From: Actinomycetes bacterium
GTDB taxonomy: Bacteria; Actinomycetota; Actinomycetes; Propionibacteriales; Propionibacteriaceae
NCBI GenBank assembly: GCA_021803025.1
Contig: JAJZQV010000001.1
Location: 38,441-102,440 of the forward strand
Length of the DNA: 64,000 bases
Reading direction: 5' to 3'
The notes below the pieces were generated by a model that made no database searches, was not told where the DNA came from, and saw only the letters and a list, made by a program, of their open reading frames with translations. The position numbers were made by a program, and so were the translations under genes. Shown here piece by piece: positions 24,917 through 54,680 of this stretch. Position 1 is the first letter of the stretch. Each line of letters begins with the position of its first letter.

Positions 24917-24955
24917 TGGCGCGCTCGGAGGGACTCGAACCCCCAACCTGCTGAT
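24917..24955. mobile_element. attL: 39-bp core, displaced 3' half of tRNA-Arg
   Basis: This is identical over 39 bp to 39778-39816. On the minus strand it reads from the 3' side of the anticodon arm through the T arm and acceptor to the encoded CCA. It is the original chromosomal 3' half, cut off from its 5' half by integration, and cannot form a tRNA alone. Confidence 0.93.
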
Positions 24956-25057: not shown

Positions 25058-25109
25058 AGGCCACGCGCAACCCCCTTGTCCTAGACCTGTTCACACGGGA
25101 GCGTGTCGC

Positions 25110-25612: not shown

Positions 25613-25649
25613 GACTGCGTCAAGATTCTGTTACTAGGCTGTCAGACCG

Positions 25650-26486
25650 ATGTCCGACGACCCCCGCTCCCTGCCCATCCCGGACGGGTGGGCCGAGGCG
25701 CTGGCGTCCTGGGAGGACCTCCTCAGGGCGGGCGGGGCGACAGGGCCGACGATCGCGACGCGGACAGACCACGGCCGGCGAGTCGCCCGGGCGCTGGGCG
25801 GCACGCCGGCGGCCGTGACGGCCGCTGACCTCCTCGCGTGGGTCGGCGGGCAGTCGTGGGCGCGGGAGACGCGGCGGAGCGTCTACGCCTCGCTGAGGTC
25901 GCTGTGGCGGCACCTGCTTGCGGCCGGATTTGTCGAGAGCGACCCGACCACTGCACTGCCCAAGGTGAGGCCTGCACCGGCCCATGCACGGCCGATCGGG
26001 GAGCGGGCCTACCGGAGGGCTGTGGCGGCCGCTACGGGGCGCGTGGCGCTCATCCTGAGGCTTGCGGGCGAGGCAGGGCTACGGCGCGAGGAGATCGCCA
26101 AGGTTCACGCCTCCGACCTGCTCGAGGACCTCGCCGGCCGGTCGCTGGTGGTCCACGGGAAGGGCGGCAAGGATCGCGTAGTGCCACTGTCGGACGACGT
26201 CGCGCGCCTGGTCGCCCGGGAATGCCTCGCCGGCGGCGGGTGGGCGCTGCCGGGCGGCGTCGACGGGCACTTGTCTGCGAGGTACGTGGGCAAGCTTGCG
26301 GCCGACGCGCTGGCGTCGGCGACGCTGCACCAGCTGCGGCACCGGTTCGCCACGGTCGCCTACGGCGGCACGCGTGACCTGCTCGCGGTCCAGCTGCTGC
26401 TCGGGCACACGTCGCCGGCGACGACGCAGCGATACGTACGGCCACCCGATGACGCGTTGCGGGCGGCGATGCTCGCGGCGTGCTAG
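25650..26486 (+). CDS. int: Tyrosine recombinase (phage integrase)
   Basis: This 278-residue integrase catalyses attP x attB recombination in tRNA-Arg(ACG). An N-terminal SAM-like core-binding domain spans roughly residues 8-105. The catalytic domain shows R145 (GEAGLRREE), K171/K174 (GKGGKDR), the box HQLRHRF with H227 and R230, H253 (LLGHTSP) and nucleophile Y262 (TTQRYV). It lacks an N-terminal arm-binding domain of the lambda type, so it is a small integrase. The C-terminus AAMLAAC is reminiscent of SsrA-like degradation tags. It is transcribed toward the lytic operon and overlaps the lipoprotein gene tail to tail by 4 bp. Confidence 0.95.
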   Translation: MSDDPRSLPIPDGWAEALASWEDLLRAGGATGPTIATRTDHGRRVARALGGTPAAVTAADLLAWVGGQSWARETRRSVYASLRSLWRHLLAAGFVESDPTTALPKVRPAPAHARPIGERAYRRAVAAATGRVALILRLAGEAGLRREEIAKVHASDLLEDLAGRSLVVHGKGGKDRVVPLSDDVARLVARECLAGGGWALPGGVDGHLSARYVGKLAADALASATLHQLRHRFATVAYGGTRDLLAVQLLLGHTSPATTQRYVRPPDDALRAAMLAAC

Positions 26487-26875
26487 AGCTGCGTGTCGAT
26501 GATCGTCAGCCGTAGGCCGGCGTCCGGGTGGTATGTCCACCGGGCCTTGTAGCCGGCCCACTCGTCGGTCTGTGTGCCGTCGAGCGCGCGTGTCTGGCCG
26601 ATGTGGTCGGACACGTAAGCCGGCGCGTCGGTCAGGCTGAGCATGCACGTGACAGTCGCCATGGGGTCGCCGCTGGAGTCTTTGGTGCCCTTCGTGTCGA
26701 GGAACACGGACGCGCCCTTGTCCTGCACGCGCGGGCCGATCCCGCAGTCCAGGGCTGCCTTGGCGAGGCGGGGCAGCGCTGGAGTCGGCGTCGGCGTGGG
26801 GGTGAGCATGGCCGCCGGCGCGGCTGAGCAGCCGGCGGCCATGAGCGCGAGCGCAACGAGGGCGGGTCGGATCAT
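26483..26875 (-). CDS. Phage-encoded lipoprotein
   Basis: The 130-residue protein has a lipoprotein signal peptide with lipobox LMAAGC (Cys at residue 16), then a Thr-Pro repeat linker (TPTPTPTP) and a roughly 90-residue extracytoplasmic domain with an internal Cys. No family is recognised. It is the last gene of the lytic operon, coupled to the holin by ATGA. Surface lipoproteins of phages can block superinfection or interfere with the wall, but nothing here shows which. Confidence 0.75.
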   Translation of the reverse strand: MIRPALVALALMAAGCSAAPAAMLTPTPTPTPALPRLAKAALDCGIGPRVQDKGASVFLDTKGTKDSSGDPMATVTCMLSLTDAPAYVSDHIGQTRALDGTQTDEWAGYKARWTYHPDAGLRLTIIDTQL

Positions 26876-27231
26876 GAGACGAGGGTAGAACCGCCCACGG
26901 TCGCGTCGGTCTTCGGGGTGACGGTCTGGCTCACGTCGCCCTGAGCCTGTCTGGTGCGTGCGGCGTCACGGGCCGCGAGCTGACTCGCCACGGCCTGAGT
27001 AGCGGCCGCATACATGCGGTCGTACATCGTGCCGTTGGTTTGAGTCGCCGCGGTCTGGGACGCGGTGATGGCCTGCCCGATCCGGTCGCCGATGAACAGT
27101 GCGCCGACGACGGGGGTAACGACGGCCCACAGGATCGTCGTATCGATGCCGTGGGCCTCGCCCCACAGCCACGTCGGCAGCGTAAGGCCGAACACGACCA
27201 CGCCCACGATCATGCTGGTGGTGGTCCTCAT
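26872..27231 (-). CDS. Putative holin
   Basis: The 119-residue protein has two hydrophobic segments, about residues 6-24 (MIVGVVVFGLTLPTWLWG) and 33-50 (ILWAVVTPVVGALFIGDR), followed by a long charged hydrophilic tail. Its position directly after the endolysin (ATGA overlap) and its topology fit a holin, which times lysis by permeabilising the membrane. No family signature is recognised. Confidence 0.7.
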   Translation of the reverse strand: MRTTTSMIVGVVVFGLTLPTWLWGEAHGIDTTILWAVVTPVVGALFIGDRIGQAITASQTAATQTNGTMYDRMYAAATQAVASQLAARDAARTRQAQGDVSQTVTPKTDATVGGSTLVS

Positions 27232-27980
27232 GCCTGGGCCTGCTTCGGGGTGATCGTGATTGTCGCGCCTTGGGCGAGGGCCGCGGCAACGATCTCCTGG
27301 GCGGCCGGCGGGGTTGGGTTCGCTAGCGACTGGGCAATCTCGTCGAGGCGGGCGGCAATCGCGTCGACACGCTGCGGCAGCGTCGCCGGCCCTACGTCAC
27401 CGCCGGGGACATACATCATGGCGTAGGTACTGAACAACTGATTTGCCTGGGCGGCGTCCATGTCGGGATCCTCTCGGGGTGTGGTGGCGGGGGCCGGCAT
27501 ACCAGCCCGTACCCACGCGTACAGGGGTACGCCTGGGCAGTCGGTGGGGTAGCCGTCGCGGTGGCCGAGCCGGGCCAGTGGCCGGGCCGCGTGGCGGGTC
27601 GCTTCGGCGTACAGGGCGATGGCCGAGTCCATGGCCGCGGCAGAGGGCTGCTCGTCGCCGCCGATGTGGATTTGGATCCCGACCGCGGATCGGTTGTGGC
27701 CGGGGCAGTGTGCGCCGATGAGGTCCCAGCCGCGGCCTTCGTAGATCACGCCGGCTTGGTCGATGACGAAGCTGTAGCCGATACCAGCCCAGCCGCGGAC
27801 GAGCTTGTGAAACGCGTGGATGGCGCGGATCATGGCCGGCCCGGTCTGGTCGCCTACCGGGGTGCCGCCGTCGTAGTGCAGCATGTACTCGTGGCGCTCG
27901 GTGGGCGATACCGGGACGGGGGCGACCCCGTCGCGCCAGCCGTCGAACCCCCACGCGGCCCGGGGAACGATCGTCACCAT
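27228..27980 (-). CDS. Endolysin, N-acetylmuramoyl-L-alanine amidase (amidase_2/PGRP fold)
   Basis: The 250-residue endolysin has its amidase domain in residues 1-155: LHYDGGTP with zinc ligand H35, YSFVIDQAGVIYEGRGW, HNRSAVGIQIHIGG, and LGHRDGYPTDCPG with H140 and C148 as the other zinc ligands. It cleaves the amide bond between MurNAc and the stem peptide. The last 80 residues are helical, without a known wall-binding repeat. There is no signal peptide, so release depends on the adjacent holin. Confidence 0.9.
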   Translation of the reverse strand: MVTIVPRAAWGFDGWRDGVAPVPVSPTERHEYMLHYDGGTPVGDQTGPAMIRAIHAFHKLVRGWAGIGYSFVIDQAGVIYEGRGWDLIGAHCPGHNRSAVGIQIHIGGDEQPSAAAMDSAIALYAEATRHAARPLARLGHRDGYPTDCPGVPLYAWVRAGMPAPATTPREDPDMDAAQANQLFSTYAMMYVPGGDVGPATLPQRVDAIAARLDEIAQSLANPTPPAAQEIVAAALAQGATITITPKQAQA

Positions 27981-28345
27981 TAGCCGGCCGCCGTGGTCGG
28001 GGTCATCTGCCGGGCCTCCCAGTGCACGGCGTGGGTCTCGGTGATGTTGTTCCCGGCCGGCGTCCAGTCGATGAGCGTGCAGCCGTTCGCCGTGATGGCG
28101 GTGGCGCGGGCGACAGTGGCGAACCCGCCGGTGGGGTTGCAGGTCACGATGGGGGGCACGGTGAACCTGCCGGCCGGAAACGTGATGTTGGCCGTTGCCA
28201 CGTTGGACGCGGCGAAGGTGACGTCCACCGAGCCGGCGGCCACGGCGTAGGGGATGTGGTCGGCCGTGGTCGGGTTGAGTGCGTTGTTGTACTGGTCAGC
28301 GTCCACGTATTCGTTGTTCACGAACGTCTTGTGAAGGGTCGTCAT
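27980..28345 (-). CDS. Tail fibre or receptor-binding-like protein (H-type lectin-like domain)
   Basis: The 121-residue protein has an N-terminal FVNNEYVDADQYN segment common at the start of phage fibre proteins. A beta-rich domain with VTFAASNVATANITFPAGRF and PPIVTCNPTGG follows, reminiscent of H-type lectin domains. It lies between the tail hub gene and the endolysin, the usual place for receptor-binding proteins. Stop and start overlap with the endolysin (TAATG). Function is from position and fold resemblance. Confidence 0.6.
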   Translation of the reverse strand: MTTLHKTFVNNEYVDADQYNNALNPTTADHIPYAVAAGSVDVTFAASNVATANITFPAGRFTVPPIVTCNPTGGFATVARATAITANGCTLIDWTPAGNNITETHAVHWEARQMTPTTAAG

Positions 28346-28359
28346 GCTCGGGTCTCCTA

Positions 28360-29607
28360 CTAGGTGGTGCGGACGGTGGTTGTCATCAGGCCGGTGTCGA
28401 GGTCGACTCGGTATTCGGATGCGACCCCGTCCACGGTGACGCCGGGAAGGGTCGTGATCCTGACGGGGTCGCGGGGCTTGAGCCACCAGGCGGCGCGGGT
28501 GGTGATGAGCCATCGCCGGTCCCGGGCGCGGGCCGCGGTGATCGCGCGGGTAGCCATCTGTGAATACATGTTCACGCCGCCGGCGGGGGTCAGGTCACCG
28601 GGCGAGGCTTGGAACTCGGCCGCGCCGAGGTGCTGGCGGGGGGTCGCGTCGGGCCAGTCTCGGGTGCCGATCTTGGCCGCGCCGAGCGGGGTCACGCCGA
28701 GCTGGAATGGCGCATCGGGGTACGACACGCCGTTGGCGCTGGTGTCTCCACTGGTGACCGACAGCCGTAGCGCGGTCGCGGCTTCGCTGAGGTCGGCCTG
28801 CTGCTCACAGCGGGACCAGACCGGCGACCAGTAGGCGGTGCTGGTGAACTCGGAGCGGTGCCGGAGGGTGAACGGGACAGACCAGCCATCCGGGGTTGTG
28901 GCCTGGTCGACCCATAGCAGCATGGTGTTGGCGTCAGGCTTGAGAGCCGAGGCGACCAGGACCAGGTAGTCCAAGATCCGGTCGCCGGTCTTGAGTACCC
29001 GGCTTGGGAGGTCGGGGTCTGCCAGCATGGCGTACCCGCCGAGGGAGAGTGTGAACTTGACCGGGAGGAAGTGCTGCGTCAGTGACTTGGGCGTGTAGGT
29101 GGGGTCGGTGAACGACGTGTACAGGTCCGGGCTGGGCGGGGTCCAGTCGGGCTCGGTGTAGACGATGCTGTCTAGCAGCGCGTCGAACGTCGCCCATCTG
29201 GTCGCGTAGCTGAGGGTCGCGGCGGTGCTGGTGGCGGCGGTGTCGTTGCCCTCGAGAACCAGCGTGGCGGACTGTAGGACGCCGTGAAAGATCGGCGCGT
29301 CGAACGCGGCCAGGCCGGGCCGGTCGTAGCCGGCGAAGATGCGCAGCGCTGTTTTGGACAGCGGTGAGGCGAGCGCCGTGGCGACCGCGGCGGGCGGGTT
29401 GTGGATCGTGATTTCTGCCGAGCCAATGGGGTAGGACCGCTCCGATAGGGTCACCACGCCGCCCGAGGTCGCCACGTCGGTCCAGGTCCATACGCCAAAG
29501 GCGGACAGGGTGCCGACCTGGGCTCGGCTGGTCGGGGTGACGGCCGCGGCGGTGGCGATGTAGTCGGCGCTGTCTGCCGGCCAAGGGGACGGGTTGAGCC
29601 CTGCCAT
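28360..29607 (-). CDS. Minor tail protein, baseplate hub-like
   Basis: The 415-residue protein is encoded immediately after the distal-tail-like gene (TAATG overlap) and before the fibre gene. Beta-rich sequence and the C-terminal WWLKPRDPVRITTLPGVTVDGVASEYRVDLDTG-like strand pattern (split here: PVRITTLPGVTVDG, EYRVDLDTGLM) fit the siphophage tail-tip hub proteins. ATG 29607 is chosen over upstream codons because it overlaps the previous stop. It probably forms the distal tail structure that contacts the host. Confidence 0.65.
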   Translation of the reverse strand: MAGLNPSPWPADSADYIATAAAVTPTSRAQVGTLSAFGVWTWTDVATSGGVVTLSERSYPIGSAEITIHNPPAAVATALASPLSKTALRIFAGYDRPGLAAFDAPIFHGVLQSATLVLEGNDTAATSTAATLSYATRWATFDALLDSIVYTEPDWTPPSPDLYTSFTDPTYTPKSLTQHFLPVKFTLSLGGYAMLADPDLPSRVLKTGDRILDYLVLVASALKPDANTMLLWVDQATTPDGWSVPFTLRHRSEFTSTAYWSPVWSRCEQQADLSEAATALRLSVTSGDTSANGVSYPDAPFQLGVTPLGAAKIGTRDWPDATPRQHLGAAEFQASPGDLTPAGGVNMYSQMATRAITAARARDRRWLITTRAAWWLKPRDPVRITTLPGVTVDGVASEYRVDLDTGLMTTTVRTT

Positions 29608-29984
29608 TACTGGGCTTCCTCTGCGGTGACGGTGAGCTCCCACCAGGGCAGCCGGTCGGGCCGCTTGATGGGGCTGTATCGGAGCGACCCAACGGCCTGG
29701 TGGCGCCAGGTCAGGCCGAGGTCGGTGTCTGTCAGGACGACGACCAGGCCGGTGCCGTACATGGTGCGCAGCGTGGTCAGGTCGGACAGCGAGCCGAGCA
29801 GGATTGTCAGCATGGCCTTGGGTTTGCCGACGGTGCCGAGCTGCAGCCGGGTGTACGCGTCTCGGACGGGCTGGAAGGCCGTACGGTTGAGCGGCTGCTC
29901 CCAGTCGAGACCGTCGACCATGAGCGGCGTGAGGGTCGTTGCGGTCGACCCGTCGCCGTTCACTGTCTTGAGTGTCGTGGTCAT
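29607..29984 (-). CDS. Distal tail-like protein
   Basis: The 125-residue, beta-rich protein directly follows the tape measure gene (3-bp gap), the canonical place of a distal tail (Dit-like) protein in siphophages. Features are MVDGLDWEQPLNRTAFQPV near residue 22 and a C-terminal WWELTVTAEEAQ. No catalytic motif is seen. Assignment rests on synteny. Confidence 0.55.
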   Translation of the reverse strand: MTTTLKTVNGDGSTATTLTPLMVDGLDWEQPLNRTAFQPVRDAYTRLQLGTVGKPKAMLTILLGSLSDLTTLRTMYGTGLVVVLTDTDLGLTWRHQAVGSLRYSPIKRPDRLPWWELTVTAEEAQ

Positions 29985-29987
29985 GTG

Positions 29988-31457
29988 CTATCCGATCGCT
30001 GGAGTCATGCCGACGAATCGGGCTTTGATATTCACCATGGGAATGGCCGCGGCGGCCTCCTGTGCCTGGCGCTGGAGGTCGAGCTTGTCGAGCTGGGCCC
30101 GTACGTGCAGGGCCCGCGGCTTGGCGTTCGCTGCGTCCACGGCCTGGTCTACGGCGCTGGTCAGGTTGAGATCGGCGATGAATGAATCCTTGGCCGTACG
30201 GCCGAGCACGGCCCAGTTGGCGGCGGTGCGCTGTTTCTGGGCCAGCGGGGCATCGATGTAGGCCTGGAGCAGCGGCGCCGCGGCCGGCCCGAGGGCCTGG
30301 ATATAGGCCAGGGCTTCGCCAGACAGGGCCTGTGACGCGGTGCGCAGGTTGGACTCGTACTTGACGATGGCGGCCCGCTCCGACTCAATGGCCTTGTTGT
30401 ACTCGGCCAGGTTCACTTTGCCCTTGGTGATGTAGTCCTCCCACGACTGGCCGGCGCCGTCGAGGGCCGTCTGTACGGCGCGCGTGTAGTCGCTGGTGGC
30501 GGTCGACGCGGCCGGCAGCGTCTCGGTGGTTGTCGTCGTCACGCCACCAATAGCCTCTTGCATCGTGCGGTACATGTCCGAGGCGGCCGCTACGCTGCCC
30601 GCCTGCCGGGTCAGCTCGTCACGCAGCGCGGTCAGCGCGGCAAGGTCAGGCTGGGCCGCCTGCCACTCGGCGCCACCGCCGGCGGTCTGAACATAGGTGG
30701 CGTTCAGCCTGTTTATCTGCTCGTCCAGCTGCCGGGTGACCCGCTCGAGAGCTCCCATGTCCCCGGTCGACGACCGGGCCATGTCGGCAATCGATAGGCC
30801 GTACTGCTTGGCGGCCTTGCTCCACTGCTCGAGCCGTGTCTTGGGCTGGTCCTGCCAGAACTCCCACCATTCTTTGGTGTCGACAATCTCCGACAGCTGC
30901 GTGCGCAGCTTCGCGGCCCAGTCGAGGGCCGCCGGGTTGCCCTTGACGTCTGCCAGCTCGCCGGCTAGGTCAATGGTCGCCTGTTTCGTGGCGGCCGCCG
31001 CGTCGGCCGCGTCCTGTAGTCCTTTGATGAGCAGCCCGATACCGGCCGCGGCCGCGGCGCCGGCGGCCAGCCCGGCCGGCCCGAACCCCTCGAACGCGTT
31101 GGCGAGGACCTCTTGGATGAGGTCGCCCACGTCGGAGAATTCGCCCGAGAACGACGCGGCGGCCTCCTTGGCCGAGGACTTGGCTTCGCCCTTGAAGTCG
31201 TCGACGCCTTCGGCGGCCTTGCGGGTGCCGTCGTGGATGTCGTCACCGATGGCCTTACCGGTCTTGGACGACTCGGTCCGTACGGTCTTGTACGCGTCGG
31301 TGAACTTGGTTTCGAGGGTGTCGGCGCCGGCCTTCGATTCGGTGGCGACCTGGTCGAGACTGTCGGCCACCTGCTCGAGCTGGTCGGCCACGTCACGGCC
31401 GGCGCGCAGGAATCCCCGCGCGTCGCCCACTAGGTCGATCTTGAACGGCTTCGCCAT
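29988..31457 (-). CDS. Tape measure protein
   Basis: The 489-residue, strongly helical protein is rich in Ala, Lys, Glu and Ser. Its N-terminus, FKIDLVGDARGFLRAGRDVA, is like that of tape measure proteins. A hydrophobic stretch AGLAAGAAAAAGIGLLIKGL near residues 131-150 can insert in membrane. It is the longest tail gene, between the tail-completion and distal tail genes. By the usual rule of about 1.5 angstrom per residue it predicts a tail near 70 nm, short for a siphophage and consistent with the tiny genome. Confidence 0.8.
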   Translation of the reverse strand: MAKPFKIDLVGDARGFLRAGRDVADQLEQVADSLDQVATESKAGADTLETKFTDAYKTVRTESSKTGKAIGDDIHDGTRKAAEGVDDFKGEAKSSAKEAAASFSGEFSDVGDLIQEVLANAFEGFGPAGLAAGAAAAAGIGLLIKGLQDAADAAAATKQATIDLAGELADVKGNPAALDWAAKLRTQLSEIVDTKEWWEFWQDQPKTRLEQWSKAAKQYGLSIADMARSSTGDMGALERVTRQLDEQINRLNATYVQTAGGGAEWQAAQPDLAALTALRDELTRQAGSVAAASDMYRTMQEAIGGVTTTTTETLPAASTATSDYTRAVQTALDGAGQSWEDYITKGKVNLAEYNKAIESERAAIVKYESNLRTASQALSGEALAYIQALGPAAAPLLQAYIDAPLAQKQRTAANWAVLGRTAKDSFIADLNLTSAVDQAVDAANAKPRALHVRAQLDKLDLQRQAQEAAAAIPMVNIKARFVGMTPAIG

Positions 31458-31461
31458 GGTG

Positions 31462-31974
31462 CTAGCTCCTGGTCTCGGCGGCGTCGAGCCATGCCCGGAT
31501 TACGGACTGCACCCAGTAGGACGCCACACGGGGCAGGACAGCCCGAGCGGCCGGGCCGAGAACACGGCCGCCCGGGGTCCTACGTGGCCGGCCAGCGGTC
31601 ACGTTGCGGGTTACCTGGTGGGTGCGGCCGCGGCGTGGCCGGCGGGTGTACGTGACGACCTTGGGGCCCGCCCCGTACTCCCACCCGGGCCAGTCCCGGG
31701 TCGGCACCAGCCCACCACCGTGGCCCTTGACGCGCTTGCCCGAGCCGGCCACGAACGTGGGCGGGTTGCCGCCGGCGATCCTGGCGCCCTGGGCGAGCAC
31801 GATGCGGTCCTGGGGCAGCCTCGAGCGGCCGGCGATCTCGTCCCGCCATACCGAATTGAACTCGGTACGGGTGCGGGTGTTCACGTCGCGGCGTATGTCC
31901 TTGTCGGCTGTGCGCATGGCAAGGACGGCCGCGCGCAGCTCACGCGGCGCGTCCTTGCTCATCAGTGACAGCAC
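31462..31974 (-). CDS. Phage tail-region protein, possibly HK97 gp10-like
   Basis: The 170-residue basic protein begins MLSLMSKDAPRELRAAVLAM and carries DRIVLAQGARIAGGNPPTF and a Gly-rich loop, reminiscent of HK97 gp10-type neck or tail-completion proteins. It sits between the major tail and tape measure genes rather than before the major tail gene, which lowers confidence. GTG 31974 is preferred because GAGAGG is 7 nt upstream; ATG 31962 is the alternative. Confidence 0.5.
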   Translation of the reverse strand: MLSLMSKDAPRELRAAVLAMRTADKDIRRDVNTRTRTEFNSVWRDEIAGRSRLPQDRIVLAQGARIAGGNPPTFVAGSGKRVKGHGGGLVPTRDWPGWEYGAGPKVVTYTRRPRRGRTHQVTRNVTAGRPRRTPGGRVLGPAARAVLPRVASYWVQSVIRAWLDAAETRS

Positions 31975-31991
31975 GACAGGGCCTCTCAGCG

Positions 31992-32432
31992 TCAGACGAT
32001 CGGCGCCGAGAACGCGGGCTTGCCGTCAGCGGCGAACGTGACCGAGCTGGTGGCGATCGCGGACGCCTTGCCGCCGATGCCGGCCGAGGACAGGGTCACG
32101 GTCAGCACTCCCTCGTCGGTGTCGTCGCTGGCGAACTTGGCGCGCAGTTCGGCCTTCGTGCCGCTGTTGGCGAGCAGCCAGCGCAGGAATCCGTCCGGGT
32201 CGCGGTCCTGCACCAGGTTGAGGGTCGCGGCCCAGGTCTCCTGTCCGGGGTCCTGGATCGTGGCGCCGTTGACGGCCACGAACGTCGAGCCGCCCGACTG
32301 TGACGGGGTGTATGTGATTTCGTCGATCGCGTCGCTGTGGTCGACGTAGTCGAGGGCGCCGGCGAGCTTGAACAGCACGCGGGTGGTGCGCATCGTGACG
32401 GGTGCCGTCACGGGGGTCTTGATCGTTGCCAT
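31992..32432 (-). CDS. Major tail protein
   Basis: The 146-residue beta-rich protein has alternating strands (ITYTPSQSGGSTFVAVNG, ETWAATLNLVQDRDPDG) and the C-terminal VTFAADGKPAFSAPIV, typical of siphophage tail-tube subunits. Position between the connector/terminator genes and the tape measure supports it. Confidence 0.75.
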   Translation of the reverse strand: MATIKTPVTAPVTMRTTRVLFKLAGALDYVDHSDAIDEITYTPSQSGGSTFVAVNGATIQDPGQETWAATLNLVQDRDPDGFLRWLLANSGTKAELRAKFASDDTDEGVLTVTLSSAGIGGKASAIATSSVTFAADGKPAFSAPIV

Positions 32433-32444
32433 GGTTCAGCCTTC

Positions 32445-32813
32445 CTAGGTGAGCTTGCACACAACGGTGAGCGGGATTGTCCAGCCTTCGAACGTGTCAT
32501 CTATGGCCGTACGGGTCGCGGTCGTCCAGGCGATCGCGTCGTCAGGCTCGAGCAGCTCGAGGACCTCGAGCAGGGCCGCGTCCAGCGCGGGGTCGAGCTT
32601 GTCCGCCCGGGTCTCGCGGACGACCACGACCAGGTCGACGGTCTCGACCAGGTGGCGGATACTGCCGCGCATGGCCCGGTCGACGTGGTCGGTGTAGGCC
32701 AGGGCCACGTTGCGGCTGTTGCTGTCGGGCCGCTGCCCGGTCGTGGGGACCAGCCAGCGGGCCGGGTCGAGTCCAGCGGCGAGAACGGCCAGGACGTGGT
32801 CGCGGCCGTTCAC
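32445..32813 (-). CDS. Tail terminator or minor tail protein
   Basis: The 122-residue protein precedes the major tail gene. DLVVVVRETRADKLDPALDA and the C-terminal WTIPLTVVCKLT fit the compact alpha/beta tail terminator fold seen at this position in siphophages. No motif is diagnostic. Its ATG overlaps the stop of the connector gene. Confidence 0.5.
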   Translation of the reverse strand: MNGRDHVLAVLAAGLDPARWLVPTTGQRPDSNSRNVALAYTDHVDRAMRGSIRHLVETVDLVVVVRETRADKLDPALDAALLEVLELLEPDDAIAWTTATRTAIDDTFEGWTIPLTVVCKLT

Positions 32814-33139
32814 TGCACGACCGGCTTACCGGGTGGGCGCAGTAGCGCCTTCACGGCCCAGTCCATGGGCCACAGCGTCACCTGGGGGCCGAGGTCAGAC
32901 TGTCCGTTGTTGTCGCCCGTGATCCCGAGCCGGGATAGCGCGCGGGCCTGGTACGCCTGGGCCATCAGGTAGTTGACCGGGGCCCCGACCGTGTCGGCCG
33001 GCAGGGCCGGCGCGAACGCTTCGCACTGGACCCGTGCCGGCTCGAGCACGGCCTGCAGGTCGCCCGTGAGCATGTCGGCGGCCGCCGGCCACCACACGGG
33101 CAGCCGGGGGTCGTCGAACGTGAGCCAGGTAGTGGTCAT
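32810..33139 (-). CDS. Head-tail connector protein (gp6-like)
   Basis: The 109-residue helical protein is encoded right after the capsid gene: FDDPRLPVWWPAAADMLTG, VNYLMAQAYQARALSR. Position and helical pattern fit head completion or adaptor proteins of HK97-type phages. It overlaps the next gene by 4 bp. Confidence 0.55.
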   Translation of the reverse strand: MTTTWLTFDDPRLPVWWPAAADMLTGDLQAVLEPARVQCEAFAPALPADTVGAPVNYLMAQAYQARALSRLGITGDNNGQSDLGPQVTLWPMDWAVKALLRPPGKPVVQ

Positions 33140-33141
33140 CG

Positions 33142-34629
33142 TCAGAGCGTGGTGACCTTGGCCAGGCCGGCCGCGTCGTGGACGTTCACGGCGTAGTACC
33201 CGAAGACGCCTTCGTCGACGCCGCCGCGGCTCACGTCGAGGGACTCCACCCGGATGGGTGCGTCGCCGCCGAGTTCGTGGACGGTCGCCGCGGAGCGGGT
33301 GCCCACCAGCACGTCGGTGGCGGCGAGCGCGCCGGACGGCAGCATCTTGAACGTGTTCAGCTCGCCGTTCTCGAACCCCAGGGCGGCGTTGAGGTAGGCG
33401 AGGCGGTCCTGCTCGCGGGTGAGCAGCAGGTCACGCCACAGCGTGGTCGAGACCACGGCCCAGTCGGGCATCGTGTCGGTGTCGTCGAGGATCGCCACGA
33501 CACCGTCGACGATCGCGGACAGGGCCTTGCTCACGTTGGCCGGGACCGCGCCGGGCGCCACGACCGTCGACGCGGCGAGCGCCTCTGTGAGCACGGCCAC
33601 GTCGGACACGCGCTTGTAGGACTCCGTCATGGCGGCGAAGTAGGCGGCGAAGAACGCCGTATCGTTGAAGTCGCGGAACTTGCGGTCGATGTCGTGCGCG
33701 CCGGCGATCCTCTTGGCGTCGATCTCGACTGCCATGGTCGCGATCGCCGCGGACGGGACCGCGGTCTTGCCGCCGGTCCAGGCGGCGACAGCCGGCCGGG
33801 TGACCCAACGCCAGCCGGACACCTTGAAGCTGGTGAGGTCGGCGTGGTTGAACAGTGGCACGTAGCGGCGCTGGTAGGCCGTCCCGGACCACAGCTCGCC
33901 CACGTACTGGGGCTGTTCGAGGCCGAGGATGTTGGCCGGGATGACGTCGGCCAGGGCCGCGAGCAGGGTGGGGGTGCGGTGGCCGCCGTTGTACGCGGCG
34001 AGGACCCGGTACAGCTCGTCGGTTCCGAACTCGAGCCGGCGGCCGGCGCCGGTGGTGGCGGTCAGGCCGGCGTCGGGCACGGACGCGGTCAGGACGGGGG
34101 CGGGCTCGACGGCCGCCGTGGGCTCGGACATGTTTTCTCCTTCGGTGGCCGTGGCGGGCGCCACGGGGTCGGTGGGTGGGGTGTCGGGGTGCAGTGAGGC
34201 GGCCAGGCGGGCCGAGTCGAACGCAGGATGGACGACCTGTGCGGCGCCGACCAGGACGCCGGACATGAGCCGGCCGCCCGAGATCACGGGCTGGTCAACC
34301 TCGAAGGACAGGCCGGTGCGGACGCCTTCGGCGGCCTCCACCAGGGCGTCGTCGCCGGCGCTGGTGGCGATCACGCGGAACGTGGCGTCGATCCCGGACG
34401 CGGTCTCGACCACGGACGTTCCCAGGCCGATGGGCGTTAATGCGTCGTGCTCGCGGTTGAGGACCAGCGCCGCCGGGTCGGCCGGCAGGGTGAGCACGCC
34501 GGCGTCGACGGTGAGCGCGCCGAGGTTTGTGTAGCCGACCTGCCCGAACGGCACCAGCTGGCCGGACAGGGTCCGCTCGGCCGCCGAGGCGGTCAGCCGG
34601 CCGTTGGGGTAGGTGACGGTGAGCGGCAT
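33142..34629 (-). CDS. Fused HK97-type prohead protease and major capsid protein
   Basis: The 495-residue product has two parts. Residues 1 to about 145 match the HK97 prohead protease family: VLNREHDALTPIGLG with H61, and VRTGLSFEVDQP with S108 as candidate catalytic residues. After a Pro/Ala linker, residues 167-495 form a phage capsid of the HK97 fold (NILGLEQPQYVGELWSG, TSFKVSGWRWVTRPAVAAWT, VHDAAGLAKVTTL). At codon 167 an ATG (34131-34129) has AAGGAG 6 nt upstream, so a separate 329-residue capsid protein could also be made from the same message. Fusion of the two functions is a genome-compaction feature. Confidence 0.88.
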   Translation of the reverse strand: MPLTVTYPNGRLTASAAERTLSGQLVPFGQVGYTNLGALTVDAGVLTLPADPAALVLNREHDALTPIGLGTSVVETASGIDATFRVIATSAGDDALVEAAEGVRTGLSFEVDQPVISGGRLMSGVLVGAAQVVHPAFDSARLAASLHPDTPPTDPVAPATATEGENMSEPTAAVEPAPVLTASVPDAGLTATTGAGRRLEFGTDELYRVLAAYNGGHRTPTLLAALADVIPANILGLEQPQYVGELWSGTAYQRRYVPLFNHADLTSFKVSGWRWVTRPAVAAWTGGKTAVPSAAIATMAVEIDAKRIAGAHDIDRKFRDFNDTAFFAAYFAAMTESYKRVSDVAVLTEALAASTVVAPGAVPANVSKALSAIVDGVVAILDDTDTMPDWAVVSTTLWRDLLLTREQDRLAYLNAALGFENGELNTFKMLPSGALAATDVLVGTRSAATVHELGGDAPIRVESLDVSRGGVDEGVFGYYAVNVHDAAGLAKVTTL

Positions 34630-34632
34630 GTC

Positions 34633-35691
34633 TCAGTCCTTCCCGGTGGGGGTCGTGGCCGGCTCGTCGAGCGCGGCGAGCTGGGCCATGTCGAATCGGA
34701 TGGAGCGGCCGGGCTCGATCATGTCGTCGAGCGACAGCCGGCCCTCGAACGGGCTCGACCAGTAGGTCAGCGACAGGCTCGACAGCTCGTTGCGCTTGGT
34801 CGCGGTCGTCGAGTAGGTCAGCGACGCAGTGGCTAGGGCGCCCTCGAGCAGCGCGGACGGCAGCGACAGGTAGTTGGCCACGTCCAGCCGGATCGCGTTA
34901 CGGCCCTGCACGTACAGGTCGGTGGCGGTGGTGCCGTGCGGGATCACCTGGATAGCGGCCGGGGTGTACGCGGTGCCGCCGGTCTTGCGCTTGGCCTCCC
35001 ACGATGCGACCAGGTCGGCGGACTCGGTCTCGGTTAGCGGCATGTTCGGGTCGGTGTTGTGCAGCTCGACCAGGGGCACGGGCGCGGCGACCCGCTGAGC
35101 CCACGCGGCCTCGAGGTCGAGGCCGGCCCGGATCGTATCGGCGGCGATCGTCAGCAGCCCCTCCTGGGGGCCTTCGATCAGGACGACCTCACCGGGTGCG
35201 GCGGGCCGCCACCTGGCGGTCGTGCTGTCGCGCAGCTCGATGCGCATGTTCTCGATGCGCCACAGCTCCGGGTGCCGGCGGTTCGCGGCGAGGATGCGGC
35301 CGCGGATGTCGCGGCTGGTATTCCACAGCGACACGCCGTAGAACATCAGGTCGTCCAGTGTCCACAGGGTCCGGGCGCGGGGCGACATCAGCCCATCGGT
35401 GCGGTACAGCCATGTGGGTTGGTCGGGATCGGACAGCCGGTTCTCGCCTTCGAACGCGACCAGCGGCAGCTGTGACAGCTGGCCGACGATCAGGGCGCGG
35501 CCGCGGGCGATCGACGGCACGCGCATGGCGTCGGCCCGGGTCACGCCGGGAGCCTTCGTTCCGGTCACGTCGGACCAGACCACACGGCTCAGGTCGTTAC
35601 TCGACCAGGGCGTGGTGAGGGCCGCGCCACTGTCGCCGGCGATCGCGGCCACTGCCGAGCTGCTCAGCCCGAGCCAGTCCATGAGTCCCAC
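34633..35691 (-). CDS. Phage portal protein
   Basis: The 352-residue protein has the HK97-type portal pattern: a short helical start, VTRADAMRVPSIARGRALIVGQLSQLPL near residues 50-77, WTLDDLMFYGVSLW, and NYLSLPSALLEGALATASLTYSTT in the later half. It forms the dodecameric DNA gate at a head vertex. It is shorter than many portals (400 or more residues), consistent with the small phage. Its stop is 3 bp before the protease-capsid gene. Confidence 0.85.
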   Translation of the reverse strand: MGLMDWLGLSSSAVAAIAGDSGAALTTPWSSNDLSRVVWSDVTGTKAPGVTRADAMRVPSIARGRALIVGQLSQLPLVAFEGENRLSDPDQPTWLYRTDGLMSPRARTLWTLDDLMFYGVSLWNTSRDIRGRILAANRRHPELWRIENMRIELRDSTTARWRPAAPGEVVLIEGPQEGLLTIAADTIRAGLDLEAAWAQRVAAPVPLVELHNTDPNMPLTETESADLVASWEAKRKTGGTAYTPAAIQVIPHGTTATDLYVQGRNAIRLDVANYLSLPSALLEGALATASLTYSTTATKRNELSSLSLTYWSSPFEGRLSLDDMIEPGRSIRFDMAQLAALDEPATTPTGKD

Positions 35692-35727
35692 GACCGGAAC
35701 TCTCCACCGGGGGACCGGACAAACGGC

Positions 35728-35943
35728 CTAGTTGCCTGACACGGATCGGCGTGTCCGCTCCCGGGCGCGGGCTTTCTGGGCGGCTTTCTGGGCCGGGTTC
35801 ACCACTCCGGGATGGGTTCGCGCGACGTGGCGGGCGAGGGCCTCCTGTGCGGCTTGGCGCGACACGGTCAGGATTCGCACCGTGCAGTCGCCTTCCTCAC
35901 AGATGGCCAGTACGGGGGCGTTCGGCAGGCCGGCGTCGATCAT
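35728..35943 (-). CDS. Small zinc-finger-like phage protein
   Basis: The 71-residue basic protein has CEEGDC near residue 17 and HVARTH near 41, giving a C-x4-C...H-x3-H spacing compatible with one zinc finger. Its C-terminus is very basic (KAAQKARARERTRRS). It lies between terminase and portal. A DNA-binding role is plausible only by composition. Confidence 0.6.
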   Translation of the reverse strand: MIDAGLPNAPVLAICEEGDCTVRILTVSRQAAQEALARHVARTHPGVVNPAQKAAQKARARERTRRSVSGN

Positions 35944-35957
35944 GGTTTGAGGTCCTC

Positions 35958-37525
35958 TCAGGCGTAGGTGATTACTGGGCGTTCGCGTCGTGCGCGTTCG
36001 TCGTACTGCCACAGGGCGACTGAGGCGGCGACCAGGGGGGACACGTCAGCGGTCGACGCCTTGCGGGCGAACAGCCGGCCCCCGTCTCCTTGGGTGCGCC
36101 ATGCGGCGCCGGCCACGGCCGCGTCGAGGTCGTCCTGTCCGTAGTGGCGCAGGTTCCCGGACTCGATCTCGCGGACCAGCCGCGCGGCCGCGCCTTGCAT
36201 GGCCTTGAGCGTCAGGCCGGCGACCCGCACCCGGGAGCGGGTGAGCACGTCGGCCACGTCCTGGTTAGCGCCGATCTGGTCGTATCCGGCCGGGACGCGG
36301 AACTTGAGCGCGGCCCGCTCGGCCGCGGCCGGCAGCCAGTCGGTGCCGGGCCGGTAGCCGACCAGCTCGAGCACGGCACGGCCGGTGGCGTCGCGCCATG
36401 CGAGGACCAGCGAGGCGGTGCTGCTGTCGGGTGCCACGTCCCACCCGATGCCGACCTGGTCGGGCCGGTCGGGCAGGGGCAGCGGGGCGCCGGCGTCGTC
36501 GACGGCCCGGCAGCCGCGCCACGCGGCCGGCGAGATCGCGGCCACCGACGCGTCGAGGGGCCAGCGGCAGCCGTACTCGGCTTCGAACTTGGTACGCGTC
36601 ATCTGGTTGTCGAGCAGCCGGGAGGCAATCAGGTCGTACGTGGTGAGGGTGCCGATCCCGGGGTGCACGCGGCGCAGCATGTTGCGGTCGAGCCCTAGCC
36701 GGCCATCGTCGTCGACGGTGACCATTTCCTCGTCGTCGCGCAGCCGGTAGGTGAGTAGGCCGGCCTTCGCCTTCGGCTTGAGCGCGAGCTGTAGCCGGTC
36801 CCACAGCAGCCCGGACCGGGTCTCGCCCGGGGTGCCGGTGATGATGATTTGGCCCGTGGGCCGGGTGTCCATGAGCGGCAGCGCGCCGGCGACCAACCGT
36901 TCTGAGAGGTCGTCGGACAGCTCGCCGGCCTCGTCGAGGATGATGCGATCCGCGGCGGCCGATCGGAACGCGCCAGGCTCGGGCTTGACGACCCAGATAC
37001 GCGACCCGTTGTTGAACTCGATCGCCTCGCTACCGGCCGACCAGAACAGCCGGCCCATGCGGTTGGCCGGGTTGCGTGCGCCCTCGAAGTCGCGCAGCTC
37101 GAGCACGCGCATGAACTCGCGGATGATCGCCCGGCCGCGCAGCCCGTCCTGAGCCGCGGTCACACAGCGCCACCCGGGGATCGTGGCGGCCTTGCCGAGA
37201 GTGTCGGACCAAATCGCGGTGGTCTTCGACGCGCGGCGCGGCTCGAGGATCACGGCCTCCTGGTACAGCGGCAGCCCCTTGACGTTCTCGGCGTTGAGCA
37301 GCGCGGCGACCTCCTCGCCCTGACGGTGCAGCGGCATGCCGAGCAGCTCGGCGCCGTGGCGCGCGGTGGCGATGTTCGTACCCGCGGGATGCGGCTTAGT
37401 TCGGTCGGGCGTGCGATTCGTCGCACCGTCGCGGCCCCGTAGGGAGAAAACGGGAGGGGCCGCGGTAGCGTGGGCTGTCCGGCGTGCTCAAAAGACTCGA
37501 CGAGAGCGGGCTGGTTCGTATTCAC
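35958..37525 (-). CDS. Terminase large subunit, apparently frameshifted near its N-terminus
   Basis: From ATG 37337 the frame encodes 459 residues with Walker A-like EPRRASKTT (32-40), Walker B RIILDEAG (131-138), the coupling motif ITGTPG, and nuclease Asp in GIGWDVAPDSS. It translocates and cuts phage DNA. Homologous-looking sequence continues upstream of 37337 (PHPAGTNIATARHGAELLG) to a stop at 37490-37488 with no ATG, GTG or TTG. A GTG at 37525 with GAGGT 10 nt upstream, 13 bp after the HNH stop, opens another frame (NTNQPALVESFEHAGQPTL, PLPFSPYGAATVRRIARPT). Joining them needs a -1 shift between about 37487 and 37340. This could be mutation, sequence error or programmed shifting. Confidence 0.8.
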
Positions 37526-37538
37526 CTGGTGACGTACC

Positions 37539-37844
37539 TCACAGTCCTCTGATGTTGCGGTCTCGGTCGGTGGTGCGCTGTTCGATTCGCCGCCGGCCGT
37601 TGGTGATCTCGGCGCCGCGTCGGCCGCCGGCTCGCATGTTGCACTCCGAGTGAGCGGGCGCAGTCTCGGTCCCACCGTCCTCACGCGAGATCGGCCAGTG
37701 GTCGACCTGCCAGCCGTCGGCCGGCAGCCACGGGCGGGGCACGACCGGCCGGCCACATCGGCAGCACAGCCACGGCAGTCGCGACTTCCATGCGGCCCGG
37801 GCTCGCCGGACGGTCGACCCCGACCAGGGCGTGGGCGCGTTCAC
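37539..37844 (-). CDS. Phage HNH endonuclease
   Basis: The 101-residue protein has the HNH fold: zinc cysteines in CCRCGRPV, the catalytic segment GWQVDHWPISREDGG, and SECNMRAGGRRGAE with the second metal-binding residues. HNH proteins next to the terminase large subunit help cut cos ends in many siphophages, which suggests cos packaging here. GTG 37844 overlaps the stop of the upstream gene (GTGA). Confidence 0.85.
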   Translation of the reverse strand: MNAPTPWSGSTVRRARAAWKSRLPWLCCRCGRPVVPRPWLPADGWQVDHWPISREDGGTETAPAHSECNMRAGGRRGAEITNGRRRIEQRTTDRDRNIRGL

Positions 37845-38227
37845 AGTCGGCGGCTCGCCACGCGTGCGAGGACGTAGCCGGGTACGTGCTTGGTCTCGAC
37901 TGGCGACGTGCGGCGACGGCCGAGGGTGACCATGAGGGTTTCGAGCTGGAGGCGTGCCTGCTCGCGCCACCAGGCCAGGGTGTGAGAGTCCCACTCGGGC
38001 ACGGGCAGCACGACGCCGAGCAGTCCCGAGGTTGTCAGGGTCTCGGGTGTCGGTGACGGGCAGCCGGCGAGCATGCTTGCCCAGTCCGGCACTCGCACGT
38101 CCTCGTTGCTGCTTGTCACCCGACGCCGAGCAGGACGCGAGGCGGTCGCGTGCTCGAGGTCTGCCGACTTGTCCACAGCCATCGCGCGCGCGTCGCTACC
38201 TTCCGCGCTTACTAGGTGTCCTCTCAT
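37841..38227 (-). CDS. Hypothetical phage protein
   Basis: The 128-residue protein is not recognised. It contains VRVPDWASMLAGCPSPTPE and a C-terminal half with WWREQARLQLETLMVTLGRRR. It starts with AGAGGAAG directly before ATG 38227 and is coupled to the HNH gene. It belongs to the early-to-packaging part of the lytic operon. Confidence 0.55.
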   Translation of the reverse strand: MRGHLVSAEGSDARAMAVDKSADLEHATASRPARRRVTSSNEDVRVPDWASMLAGCPSPTPETLTTSGLLGVVLPVPEWDSHTLAWWREQARLQLETLMVTLGRRRTSPVETKHVPGYVLARVASRRL

Positions 38228-38254
38228 CTTCCTCTGTCTTCCTCTTGAGTTCTC

Positions 38255-38737
38255 TTATCTAGGGCCAACGTTTTGTTGCCCCTGAGGGCCAACGTTTTGT
38301 TGGGTCTGAGGGCCAACGTTTTGTTGGGTCTGAGGGCCAACGTTTCGTTGCCCCTGGGGTGCCCGGCGGGTGGCGATGCTGACCACGTTGTCCACAGGTG
38401 GGCGGTCGTCGACGCCGGGGAGCGGCAGGGCGTCCACGTGCAGCTCGTAGACGGCGCGTGAGCCGTTGACGGCCTCGCGGGCGCGGGTCACGGCGCCGGC
38501 GCGGACGAGGGACGCGACAGCGCGGCGGACGGTCTCCTTGTCGGTTGCGTACGTGGGGCCAGCGGGGTCGTGGTGGCGCCCGATGGTGGCCAGGACGAGC
38601 GCGGCCGATCCTCCGAAGTACATGGGCCGGGTGTCGTCGTCGCGGGCCTGTAGGGCCATGGCGACGAGCGTGAGTGTCTCTCGGGGGGTCAGCACCCGGG
38701 ACCAGAGCATGGCCCGGGTGGCTAGCTGGTAACCCAT
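38255..38737 (-). CDS. HTH-domain replication-type protein with repeated C-terminus
   Basis: The 160-residue protein has a winged-helix-like region (MALQARDDDTRPMYFGGS, then TYATDKETVRRAVASLVRAGAV) like the N-terminal domain of actinophage and plasmid replication or helix-turn-helix proteins. The C-terminus is four repeats of about eight residues (QQNVGPQ type), encoded by the tandem 24-bp units at 38262-38357. ATG 38737 follows the previous stop by one base; the longer upstream frame overlaps that gene and is not used. It may bind an origin that lies in its own gene, by analogy with iteron-containing initiators. That is inference. Confidence 0.65.
   Translation of the reverse strand: MGYQLATRAMLWSRVLTPRETLTLVAMALQARDDDTRPMYFGGSAALVLATIGRHHDPAGPTYATDKETVRRAVASLVRAGAVTRAREAVNGSRAVYELHVDALPLPGVDDRPPVDNVVSIATRRAPQGQRNVGPQTQQNVGPQTQQNVGPQGQQNVGPR
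38262..38357. repeat. Four tandem 24-bp iteron-like repeats, each with an inverted repeat
   Basis: Units start at 38262, 38286, 38310 and 38334 with consensus GGGCCAACGTTTTGTTGGGT plus CTGA. Units 2 and 3 contain the perfect palindrome CCAAC-GTTTT-GTTGG; units 1 and 4 keep CAAC...GTTG. Spacing is about two helical turns plus. They lie within the 3' coding end of the HTH protein. Confidence 0.8.
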
Positions 38738-38738
38738 G

Positions 38739-38999
38739 TCAAGCGGCCACCACAGGACAGCCCTGCCAGTGGAGCGCGTCGCCGCGGCCGCATGAGCGGC
38801 ACCGGCCGGGCAGGGTGACCGCCACGGCCCACCAGCGCCAGAACACGGGCTGTCCGTCGTCACGGCTCAGGGTCTCGCCGGTACGCGTGTTCAGGACCTC
38901 GCCAAGGTGGACGACCAGGCCGTCGACGGTCGGCATAGTCTGGGCCTCGCTCGGCCCTGAGCGGCGGCCAGGTACCCAGTCGCGGCCATGCCTCTTCAC
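38739..38999 (-). CDS. Small phage protein with a zinc-ribbon-like motif
   Basis: The 86-residue protein ends with CRSCGRGDALHWQGC, giving C-x2-C and a later H/C pair that could bind zinc. The N-terminal half is beta-rich (GLVVHLGEVLNTRTGE). It is coupled to both neighbours in the early operon. Function unknown. Confidence 0.6.
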   Translation of the reverse strand: MKRHGRDWVPGRRSGPSEAQTMPTVDGLVVHLGEVLNTRTGETLSRDDGQPVFWRWWAVAVTLPGRCRSCGRGDALHWQGCPVVAA

Positions 39000-39199
39000 G
39001 GTCGGACCCCGAGCCGACCGTATGCCTTGGCGGCTGCCGCGAGTCGGTTGGTGAGTCGCGTCAGCTCCTGGTGCTCGGCGTAGGTCATGCCGGGAAGGTT
39101 GATGCTGAGGCAGGTCTTGTACTCCTCGAGCGCGATCGCGGCCTCAGCAAGATCGATCAGCCGGGCGGCCGCGTCGGCGAAGTTTGGCGCGTCGGTCAT
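38996..39199 (-). CDS. Small early phage protein
   Basis: The 67-residue, helical, acidic protein (MTDAPNFADAAARLIDLAEA) is not recognised. ATG 39199 overlaps the cro stop (ATGA), placing it second in the lytic operon. Its end overlaps the next gene by 4 bp. Confidence 0.6.
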   Translation of the reverse strand: MTDAPNFADAAARLIDLAEAAIALEEYKTCLSINLPGMTYAEHQELTRLTNRLAAAAKAYGRLGVRP

Positions 39200-39429
39200 G
39201 CTGCCGCCGCCATGGCCGCGTCGAGAACGGCAGCGGTGGGCAGGATGTCGAGCAGCGAGGGGTACGCCTCGCACAGGCGCACGATCTCGCCCCAGCGCCA
39301 CTCTGTCTTGCCGGTGAAGCGATCAGAGACAGCCCGAACCGATAGGCCGAGCAGGGCGGCAACGCGTAGCTGCGTATGGCCGGCCTTGGCGAGCTCGCCG
39401 CGCAGGTGCGCGGTCACGGTGTAAGTCAT
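39196..39429 (-). CDS. Cro-like HTH regulator, first gene of the lytic operon
   Basis: This 77-residue helix-turn-helix protein has HTH LRVAALLGLSVRAVSDRFTGKTEWRW around residues 21-46. It is divergent from the repressor across 99 bp and resembles it in the recognition region (both have a DR-x2-GKT-x-W pattern), so the two appear paralogous and likely bind the same palindromes. No Shine-Dalgarno precedes ATG 39429, and AATGAT lies 6 nt upstream, so transcription may start at the ATG. By position it is the Cro that favours lytic growth. Confidence 0.8.
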   Translation of the reverse strand: MTYTVTAHLRGELAKAGHTQLRVAALLGLSVRAVSDRFTGKTEWRWGEIVRLCEAYPSLLDILPTAAVLDAAMAAAA

Positions 39430-39441
39430 GGCGCGATCATT

Positions 39442-39509
39442 GCGGAATCTCCGCTATCGACAGGTGCGACACGCTGAGGAATCCCTCAGATGTCAGCGGG
39501 ATACCCGCT
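39442..39509. promoter_or_regulatory. Immunity operators: three palindromes between cro and repressor
   Basis: GCGGAATCTCCGC (39442-39454) and AGCGGGATACCCGCT (39495-39509) share the context GCGG.AT..CCGCTATCG. Between them CTGAGGAATCCCTCAG (39474-39489) is a related palindrome. The outer two sit just upstream of AATGAT (toward cro) and TACCTT (toward the repressor), each 6 nt before an ATG, as expected if they cover both promoters. Confidence 0.65.
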
Positions 39510-39528
39510 ATCGCTGTACCTTGACTGC

Positions 39529-39822
39529 ATGCCGAGACCACGAACCTTCGTCCCAGCCGATGAGTCCACGATGCCGGGACTCGTCGCGTCCAACATCCGA
39601 GCCCTGGCTAGTCGGCGGGGCCTCAGTCAGGTGCAGCTAGCGAAGGCCATGGGCATGTCGGCGCGCACGTTGGCGGACCGCTGGTGGGGCAAGACGCAGT
39701 GGCAGCTCGAGGACTTGGACGCGGCCGCGGCGGTGCTGGGCGTCACGCCATGGGACCTGTGTACGCCAGACGATCTATGGCGCGCTCGGAGGGACTCGAA
39801 CCCCCAACCTGCTGATCCGTAG
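39529..39822 (+). CDS. Immunity repressor, short prophage form ending inside attR
   Basis: The 97-residue protein has an XRE-type helix-turn-helix at about residues 24-52 (RALASRRGLSQVQLAKAMGM). It would keep the lytic operon off by binding the palindromes just upstream. Residues 84-96 (WRARRDSNPQPAD) are encoded by the attR core, that is by tRNA-Arg DNA, and the next codons are CCG TAG from the host side. In the excised circle the same frame continues through attL for 33 codons to TGA at 25055-25057, giving a 129-residue form. ATG 39529 is preferred to ATG 39490 because homology begins later and a TACCTT hexamer lies 6 nt upstream; no Shine-Dalgarno is present. Confidence 0.85.
   Translation: MPRPRTFVPADESTMPGLVASNIRALASRRGLSQVQLAKAMGMSARTLADRWWGKTQWQLEDLDAAAAVLGVTPWDLCTPDDLWRARRDSNPQPADP
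39778..39816. mobile_element. attR: 39-bp core inside tRNA-Arg and inside the repressor gene
   Basis: This is identical to 24917-24955. It restores the 3' half and CCA of tRNA-Arg(ACG) with phage DNA and at the same time encodes repressor residues 84-96. The crossover lies within these 39 bp. Confidence 0.95.
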
Positions 39823-39853
39823 TCAGCTGCTCTATCCATTGAGCCACGAGCGC
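39781..39853 (-). tRNA. tRNA-Arg(ACG), prophage attachment site
   Basis: The minus strand gives acceptor GCGCTCG (39853-39847) paired with CGAGCGC, discriminator G at 39781 and encoded CCA at 39780-39778. The anticodon loop CTACGGA gives ACG, the tRNA whose A34 TadA converts to inosine. The 5' half is host DNA; the 3' half from 39816 down was supplied by the phage and keeps the gene intact. Confidence 0.95.
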
Positions 39854-54643: not shown

Positions 54644-54680
54644 CCACGCGTCCCATTGCGTCGGCGGGTCCGGGTGGGCG

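Follow-up and report, generated by a model that had tools for sequence, protein, structure and literature searches.

The window analysed here, a stretch of 64,000 nucleotides from a genome of the Propionibacteriaceae, contains a small prophage that sits in a tRNA gene and whose repressor gene runs into one of its attachment sites. Its features, in the numbering of the window, are the following.

24917..39816, no strand: prophage, about 14.9 kb between the att cores, in tRNA-Arg(ACG) (direct repeat, empty site in three congeners, phage genes inside)
24917..24955, no strand: attL core, 39 bp (exact repeat)
24956..25057, plus strand: separated 3′ part of the gene for the viral repressor, with 33 codons, an EAVAS end and then TGA (in silico excision)
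25054..25113, plus strand: ORF of 19 residues, VKATRNPLVLDLFTRERVA, overlapping the stop of the tail (GTGA)
25110..25370, plus strand: small ORF, 86 aa, unmatched in NCBIfam; read in its shorter version, 25113-25370, it is unmatched in PHROG and Pfam
25367..25612, plus strand: small ORF, 81 aa, unmatched in PHROG, Pfam and NCBIfam
25650..26486, plus strand: tyrosine integrase, 278 aa, XerC-like (PF00589, phrog_1)
27228..27980, minus strand: endolysin, an amidase (phrog_1493)
33142..34629, minus strand: major capsid protein, resembling the fused capsid-protease proteins known from compact actinophages (phrog_2263; best matches BlueFeather, Whytu, Yavru)
34633..35691, minus strand: portal protein (phrog_12)
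35958..37337, minus strand: terminase large subunit (phrog_9)
39196..39429, minus strand: Cro-like gene with an HTH, divergent from the repressor, which matches the same family (phrog_4583)
39430..39528, no strand: control region; candidate operators at 39442-39454, 39474-39489 and 39495-39509, with TACCTT at 39517-39522 as a candidate -10 box
39529..39822, plus strand: prophage form of the repressor gene, 97 aa, with the att core as codons 84-96 and its TAG in the host tRNA gene (PHROG, Pfam, repeat analysis)
39778..39816, no strand: attR core, 39 bp, antisense to the 3′ part of tRNA-Arg (exact repeat, ARAGORN)
39778..39853, minus strand: host tRNA-Arg(ACG), intact at attR (ARAGORN)

The two att cores are copies of a 39-bp exact repeat (24917-24955 and 39778-39816), the longest common to both junction regions, and the 64-kb window holds no further copy on either strand. 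The core is the 3′ part of tRNA-Arg(ACG) in antisense (tRNA at 39778-39853, minus strand, by ARAGORN) and is in frame with the repressor gene, codon 84 being its first and codon 96 its last. In the integrated state the core is followed by CCG TAG, which gives a repressor of 97 residues whose stop codon lies inside the host tRNA. On the attL side the same frame continues for 33 codons to a TGA at 25055-25057, and excision in silico joins the two parts into a repressor of 129 residues that ends in EAVAS. An earlier interpretation of this DNA from its letters alone (the sequence-only reading) had assigned the core to repressor residues 84-96 and the prophage form to 97 residues, which is correct to the base, and its 33-codon frame at attL, TGA at 25055-25057 and 129-residue excised form were reproduced in silico. 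The gene order that it gave for the circle holds from the repressor, through attP in its 3′ end, to the integrase, and requires amendment in one place, as three small ORFs rather than two lie before the integrase.

In three genomes of the same genus that we aligned (G391, G202 and G381), a homolog of the left flank is joined directly to an undisturbed tRNA-Arg and the right flank, and the tRNA adjoins the PEPCK gene also in G342, outside the three-genome alignment. The oxidoreductase gene of the left flank has a homolog in 6 of 7 congeneric genomes, counting that of the window; on the same contig it lies about 4.4 kb from the tRNA in G381 and about 2.7 kb in G202, so that the intervening genes differ. 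Elsewhere in the order, five genomes (G002, G004, G008, G009 and G013) carry a second, partial copy of the tRNA-Arg(ACG) 3′ end, 43-47 bp long and roughly 5-12 kb from the full gene, which suggests that other small elements are integrated at this site.

The repressor matches HTH_31, HTH_26 and HTH_3, as well as phrog_4583 (transcriptional repressor). The divergent Cro-like protein is 29% identical to it over 51 residues and, judging from this resemblance, is likely its paralog. Two palindromes, CTGAGGAATCCCTCAG and AGCGGGATACCCGCT, lie together with one imperfect site, GCGGAATCTCCGC, in the control region between the two genes (39430-39528), where the 18 bases from 39442 match those from 39496 at 15 of 18 positions. 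The palindrome count of this region is mildly above chance, being reached in 18 of 300 shuffles, and the operators thus stay candidates only. The operator pattern GMGGRATNYCCKC occurs twice without mismatch, both times in the control region; as a search pattern for the whole window with 2 mismatches it was discarded, with 96 matches against 115 expected and hence no excess. A scan of 39380-39600 for a consensus sigma-70 promoter gave no match. The hexamer TACCTT (39517-39522) lies six bases before the ATG at 39529, and TACCGT stands likewise (by eye) before the repressor start of a related prophage, G308, described below. The protein database starts the repressor at Met15 (83 aa, P0007); the spacing TACCNT-6 nt-ATG that is common to the two prophages favours the start that gives 97 residues. 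In the light of what is known of actinobacterial -10 boxes, TACCTT may be the -10 box of a leaderless repressor promoter.

Three successive GTGA overlaps lead from the tail to the ORF at 25054-25113, on to 25110-25370 and then to 25367-25612, followed by a gap of 37 nt before the integrase, and this chain suggests that in the circle the genes from the repressor to the integrase form one coupled operon. The 19-residue ORF ends in VLDLFTRERVA, and the viral tail of G308 has a similar end, VYDITTGRRVA (a score reached in 7 of 1000 shuffles). The best NCBIfam match of the integrase, XerC (TIGR02224), falls below its cut-off; from its length, the enzyme likely lacks an arm-binding domain, and its C-terminus reads ...AAMLAAC. 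It matches 311 records of the phage collection (163 Mycobacterium, 118 Gordonia, 12 Arthrobacter and others), all at less than 60% identity, and the best 25 of the 311 are all Mycobacterium phages, Angel included, at 47% identity. These 25 relatives we take to be cluster G, with BPs. What we take to be the catalytic residues of tyrosine recombinases fall among the invariant columns of the integrase alignment.

The capsid protein matches 87 phage records (63 Arthrobacter, 17 Gordonia), the best 25 of which are records of 14.6-17.1 kb, are 30-36% identical and are mostly annotated as capsid-protease fusions. With 14.9 kb between its cores, the element has the dimensions of the compact actinophages of the Gordonia CW and Arthrobacter FE type (about 14-18 kb, with a fused capsid-protease gene). 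The capsid and integrase relationships together point to the body of a compact actinophage with a lysogeny module akin to that of BPs.

The anatomy of the locus also agrees with the features given for integration-dependent immunity systems in the available part of PMC9934374: the common core of attP lies within the repressor coding sequence, the prophage repressor is shortened by a bacterial stop codon at the junction (97 versus 129 codons), a tyrosine integrase lies downstream of the repressor in the circle with three small ORFs between, and a divergent cro-like gene is present with the control region between it and the repressor. The element is thus likely a member of these systems in the Propionibacteriaceae.

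Over the 33-codon tail, GC content by codon position is 0.76/0.56/0.85, the pattern expected of a coding frame, and one of the other two frames is open as well. By a shuffle test the chance of a frame staying open for 33 codons is 0.52, and since such a frame is expected about half the time, the argument rests on relatives instead. Chance as a full explanation was considered and rejected, with the case moved to those relatives from the openness of the frame, which carries no evidence.

Among 391 genomes of the order, evenly drawn from a larger group, the repressor has matches at 1e-8 in 3 and the integrase at 1e-25 in 34, the window's own genome included in both counts, and the capsid has matches at 1e-30 in 2 of 198 genomes of the family, the window's own and G308. 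Two of the 12 stretches fetched around relatives in other genomes (tblastn) contain a repressor homolog, L039 and L040. The first comes from G308, of another genus, where a prophage of 15 kb occupies the same tRNA-Arg, with a core that is similar by eye; its repressor is 44% identical to that of the window over 63 residues, its integrase 51% and its terminase 47%. The G308 repressor has 88 residues when integrated and 130 in the joined circle, with the core read in a different frame, and the stop of its viral tail overlaps the next ATG. At the second (L040/L071, G164:C6 ~51900-57500), a homolog of the repressor extends in antisense into tRNA-Arg(ACG); another copy of the core lies 5.4 kb away, and no integrase was found in the 70 kb searched. 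The G164 element is likely a decayed prophage that kept its repressor.

The uninterrupted form of the gene can be seen in viral contigs. L209, a contig of 15,748 bp with a 141-bp terminal repeat and thus an implied circle of 15,607 bp, has homologs of the repressor, cro, integrase, terminase, portal and capsid genes, and L195 has the same genes in its available stretch. In both, an uninterrupted long repressor runs through the core to an -LAA end. A structure model of the L209 repressor, of high confidence in the HTH region (block means of 85-96 for residues 21-80) and of low confidence in the tail (43-61), is uninformative on degradation. A search of the viral contigs for the exact core-tail junction of the present phage gave 0 matches, and among 136 candidates the 129-residue form found the window's own record only.

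A scan of the viral contigs with a single integrase protein matched 15 stretches, none of which was confirmed, and the integrase alignment (A1) worked in its place. We applied a mechanical rule to those 31 of the 80 viral loci from the A1 search that had at least 1.5 kb before the integrase. A coding-like ORF with an antisense-tRNA peptide was found upstream of the integrase in 18 of the 31, a count in which the ORFs of L176 and L186 are in a frame other than that of the repressor, L189 is placed by the rule alone and L217 stands without the HTH test. The rule found nothing in 13 loci, including L154 and L193; L193 does have a long repressor, which the rule missed, and in L154, with the closest integrase (61%), no antisense-tRNA repressor was present among the upstream ORFs of the stretch read. 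In L233 (2098-2514), a repressor-like HTH ORF upstream of the integrase ends in AMAVSS, with an ATGA overlap and without the antisense-tRNA peptide.

We compared the C-termini of 21 long repressors, hand-picked from 18 viral contigs and from Angel, Emperor and McGonagall, several of them close kin; all 21 match HTH_31. The last residue is Ala in 16 of them, whereas 3 have AS and 2 have VK or VR at the end, and Ala occurs in the last two residues of 19 of the 21, versus 120 of 295 (41%) coding-like ORFs of the compared loci, a comparison whose binomial figure is indicative only, its members being hand-picked and non-independent. The two long forms without the usual Ala, L161:9557-9964 and L164:3930-4337, contain the antisense-tRNA peptide, end in LVK or LVR, and may rely on a different signal or on no signal at all. 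Among five pairs of relatives, the bodies are identical at 76/95, 65/83, 68/106, 100/102 and 75/99 positions (64-98%) and the tails at 22/53, 20/53, 17/27, 7/50 and 7/25 (14-63%), while the last residues are of the same type; L176 and L186 have near-identical bodies and quite different tails, ending in KAS and EAA. A conserved body, a drifting tail and an end whose type is kept are what a C-terminal degradation signal predicts. The viral tail of the present phage ends in VAS, compared with KAS in Angel and the canonical -AA. According to part of PMC8092301, several repressors that lack an ssrA-like tag presumably depend on other signals, in a way similar to BPs, and the present phage would join that group.

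The juxtaposition of core and repressor could be explained in other ways. First, the overlap could be incidental, with the tRNA 3′ end reused as an att site at the edge of the repressor and both forms equally stable and active. A frame that opens by chance about half the time and a tail without the canonical -AA would fit this, as would the finding, from the available part of PMC4557955, that the long and short forms of the BPs repressor bind DNA similarly. Yet this arrangement is seen repeatedly, with tails that differ and with the tRNA read in more than one frame, the end residues keep their type while the tail drifts or is replaced, and integrase relatives of tested function do use the switch, all of which makes mere coincidence improbable. 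In a variant of the switch with a similarly small chance of being right, the tail would stop at its GTGA overlap and pass the ribosome on to the 19-residue ORF, which could be a split-off tag, reaching the repressor by frameshifting only, or a separate peptide coupled to translation of the repressor; by eye, no classical slippery heptamer was seen at the GTGA overlap between the tail and this ORF. If true, integration would remove the repressor tail and the peptide together, adding a second layer to the known switch. As a second rival, integration could act mainly by disconnecting the integrase and the 19-residue peptide from a translationally coupled operon, rather than on repressor stability. 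The chain of GTGA overlaps, three in all, that reaches from the tail as far as 25367, with the integrase following after a gap of 37 nt, is what such coupling would look like, and ATGA or GTGA stands at the stop of 13 of the 21 long forms (the gene start there was checked for some); in the other 8 of the 21 the overlap is absent, and the enrichment of Ala at the tail ends would be left unexplained. We consider this quite unlikely as the main effect, and the two effects are compatible, neither excluding the other. Finally, that the prophage is decayed or the frame misread, so that the repressor is not made or not functional, is very improbable despite the database start at Met15 and the decayed look of the related G164 copy (core copy 5.4 kb away, no integrase found), because the terminase, portal, capsid, endolysin and integrase genes are long open frames with family matches, the HTH region of the repressor aligns with viral-contig repressors at 23-39%, and the presumed catalytic residues are invariant in the integrase alignment.

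We therefore favour, with a probability of roughly 0.87, the reading in which the repressor has an integrated form of 97 codons and a predicted circular form of 129, and in which the 33-residue tail likely marks the viral form for proteolysis, with immunity only after integration. By analogy with its homologs, one leaderless promoter in the infecting circle would drive the repressor, the three small genes and the integrase; the -AS end would expose the long repressor to degradation, and the Cro-like side would then be free. Should the integrase prevail, the tail would be lost by recombination at tRNA-Arg, and the stable repressor, 32 residues shorter, would act on the candidate operators at 39442-39509. 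Integration would also separate the integrase from the repressor promoter. An unstable viral form and a stable prophage form are what the sequence-only reading had proposed; the anatomy and the homology to tested systems support this, with the degradation step expected by analogy, and on these grounds the mechanism is very likely right.

If so, a simple decision switch, in which the insertion of DNA edits the end of a repressor, likely extends to the Propionibacteriaceae, where it occurs in a tailed phage of very small size. From the comparisons, the design seems to be reusable: the body of the repressor is conserved, its tail diverges or is exchanged, the end residues stay of constant type, and the stop can come from one or the other of two reading frames of a single tRNA gene. 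The comparisons also provide sequence features by which such switches could be recognised in prophages and the form of a repressor that would confer immunity predicted.

Integration-dependent immunity was reportedly first described in a 2013 paper. The switch has been demonstrated by experiment in BPs-type mycobacteriophages, where the BPs repressor gp33 has 136 residues and the substitution A135E stabilises the protein (PMC4557955, available part). In Angel, gp33 is also of 136 aa, ends in KAS and has a GTGA overlap with the next gene. BPs and Angel (gp33/gp32) resemble the present phage in having the attP core inside the repressor coding sequence, with a tRNA-derived core that is similar by eye; an HTH repressor that is shortened by about 33 residues, with an -AS tail and a GTGA overlap with the next gene; a divergent gene at the same place (annotated as an RDF in Angel and Cro-like in BPs); and a related integrase (47%, Angel and kin). 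However, the relatedness shown for the repressors extends to the HTH fold, the present phage has three small ORFs before the integrase and reads its core in another frame, and it measures 14.9 kb compared with 41 kb, in a host that is likely not a mycobacterium.

Placement of attP is not uniform among phages: it lies outside the repressor in Galaxy (PMC5513430, available part), and for P. freudenreichii phages the accessible text of PMC5831693 describes attP upstream of the integrase and names no integration-dependent switch. Among the matches listed from the open-licence literature, there was no report of integration-dependent immunity in the Propionibacteriaceae. In the M. abscessus prophages MabB, MabC, MabH, MabK, MabN and MabO, which have other hosts, attP is described as lying in the repressor, with 20-35 residues lost on integration and the integrase directly downstream or 3-5 genes away, and some lack an -AA tag; several integration-dependent systems have an integrase without a C-terminal degradation tag (PMC8092301, as far as available).

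The novelty that the sequence-only reading had implied is not supported: the switch has been published before for compact phages (PMC5559632 and PMC6109161, from the parts available). The Gordonia phages of cluster CW (McGonagall, Jeanie, GMA5 and GRU3) and Emperor share with the present phage genomes of about 17 kb, a related capsid and an integrase, and McGonagall and Emperor also have an HTH repressor with an antisense-tRNA peptide and a -VAA end. Cluster CW is described as compact phages with integration-dependent immunity at tRNA-Lys (PMC5559632, available part); it differs in this site and in its host, and the Gordonia capsids among the matches listed are 32-36% identical. The Bifidobacterium prophages Bb423phi2 and 689b-1 are likewise small by description, with the integrase at attL, the repressor at attR and a longer viral repressor with an ssrA-like tag, and differ in their tRNA-Met site and in having 18 extra residues (PMC6109161, available part). 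Thus, the present phage is a further case of the published switch, in a further virus and host.
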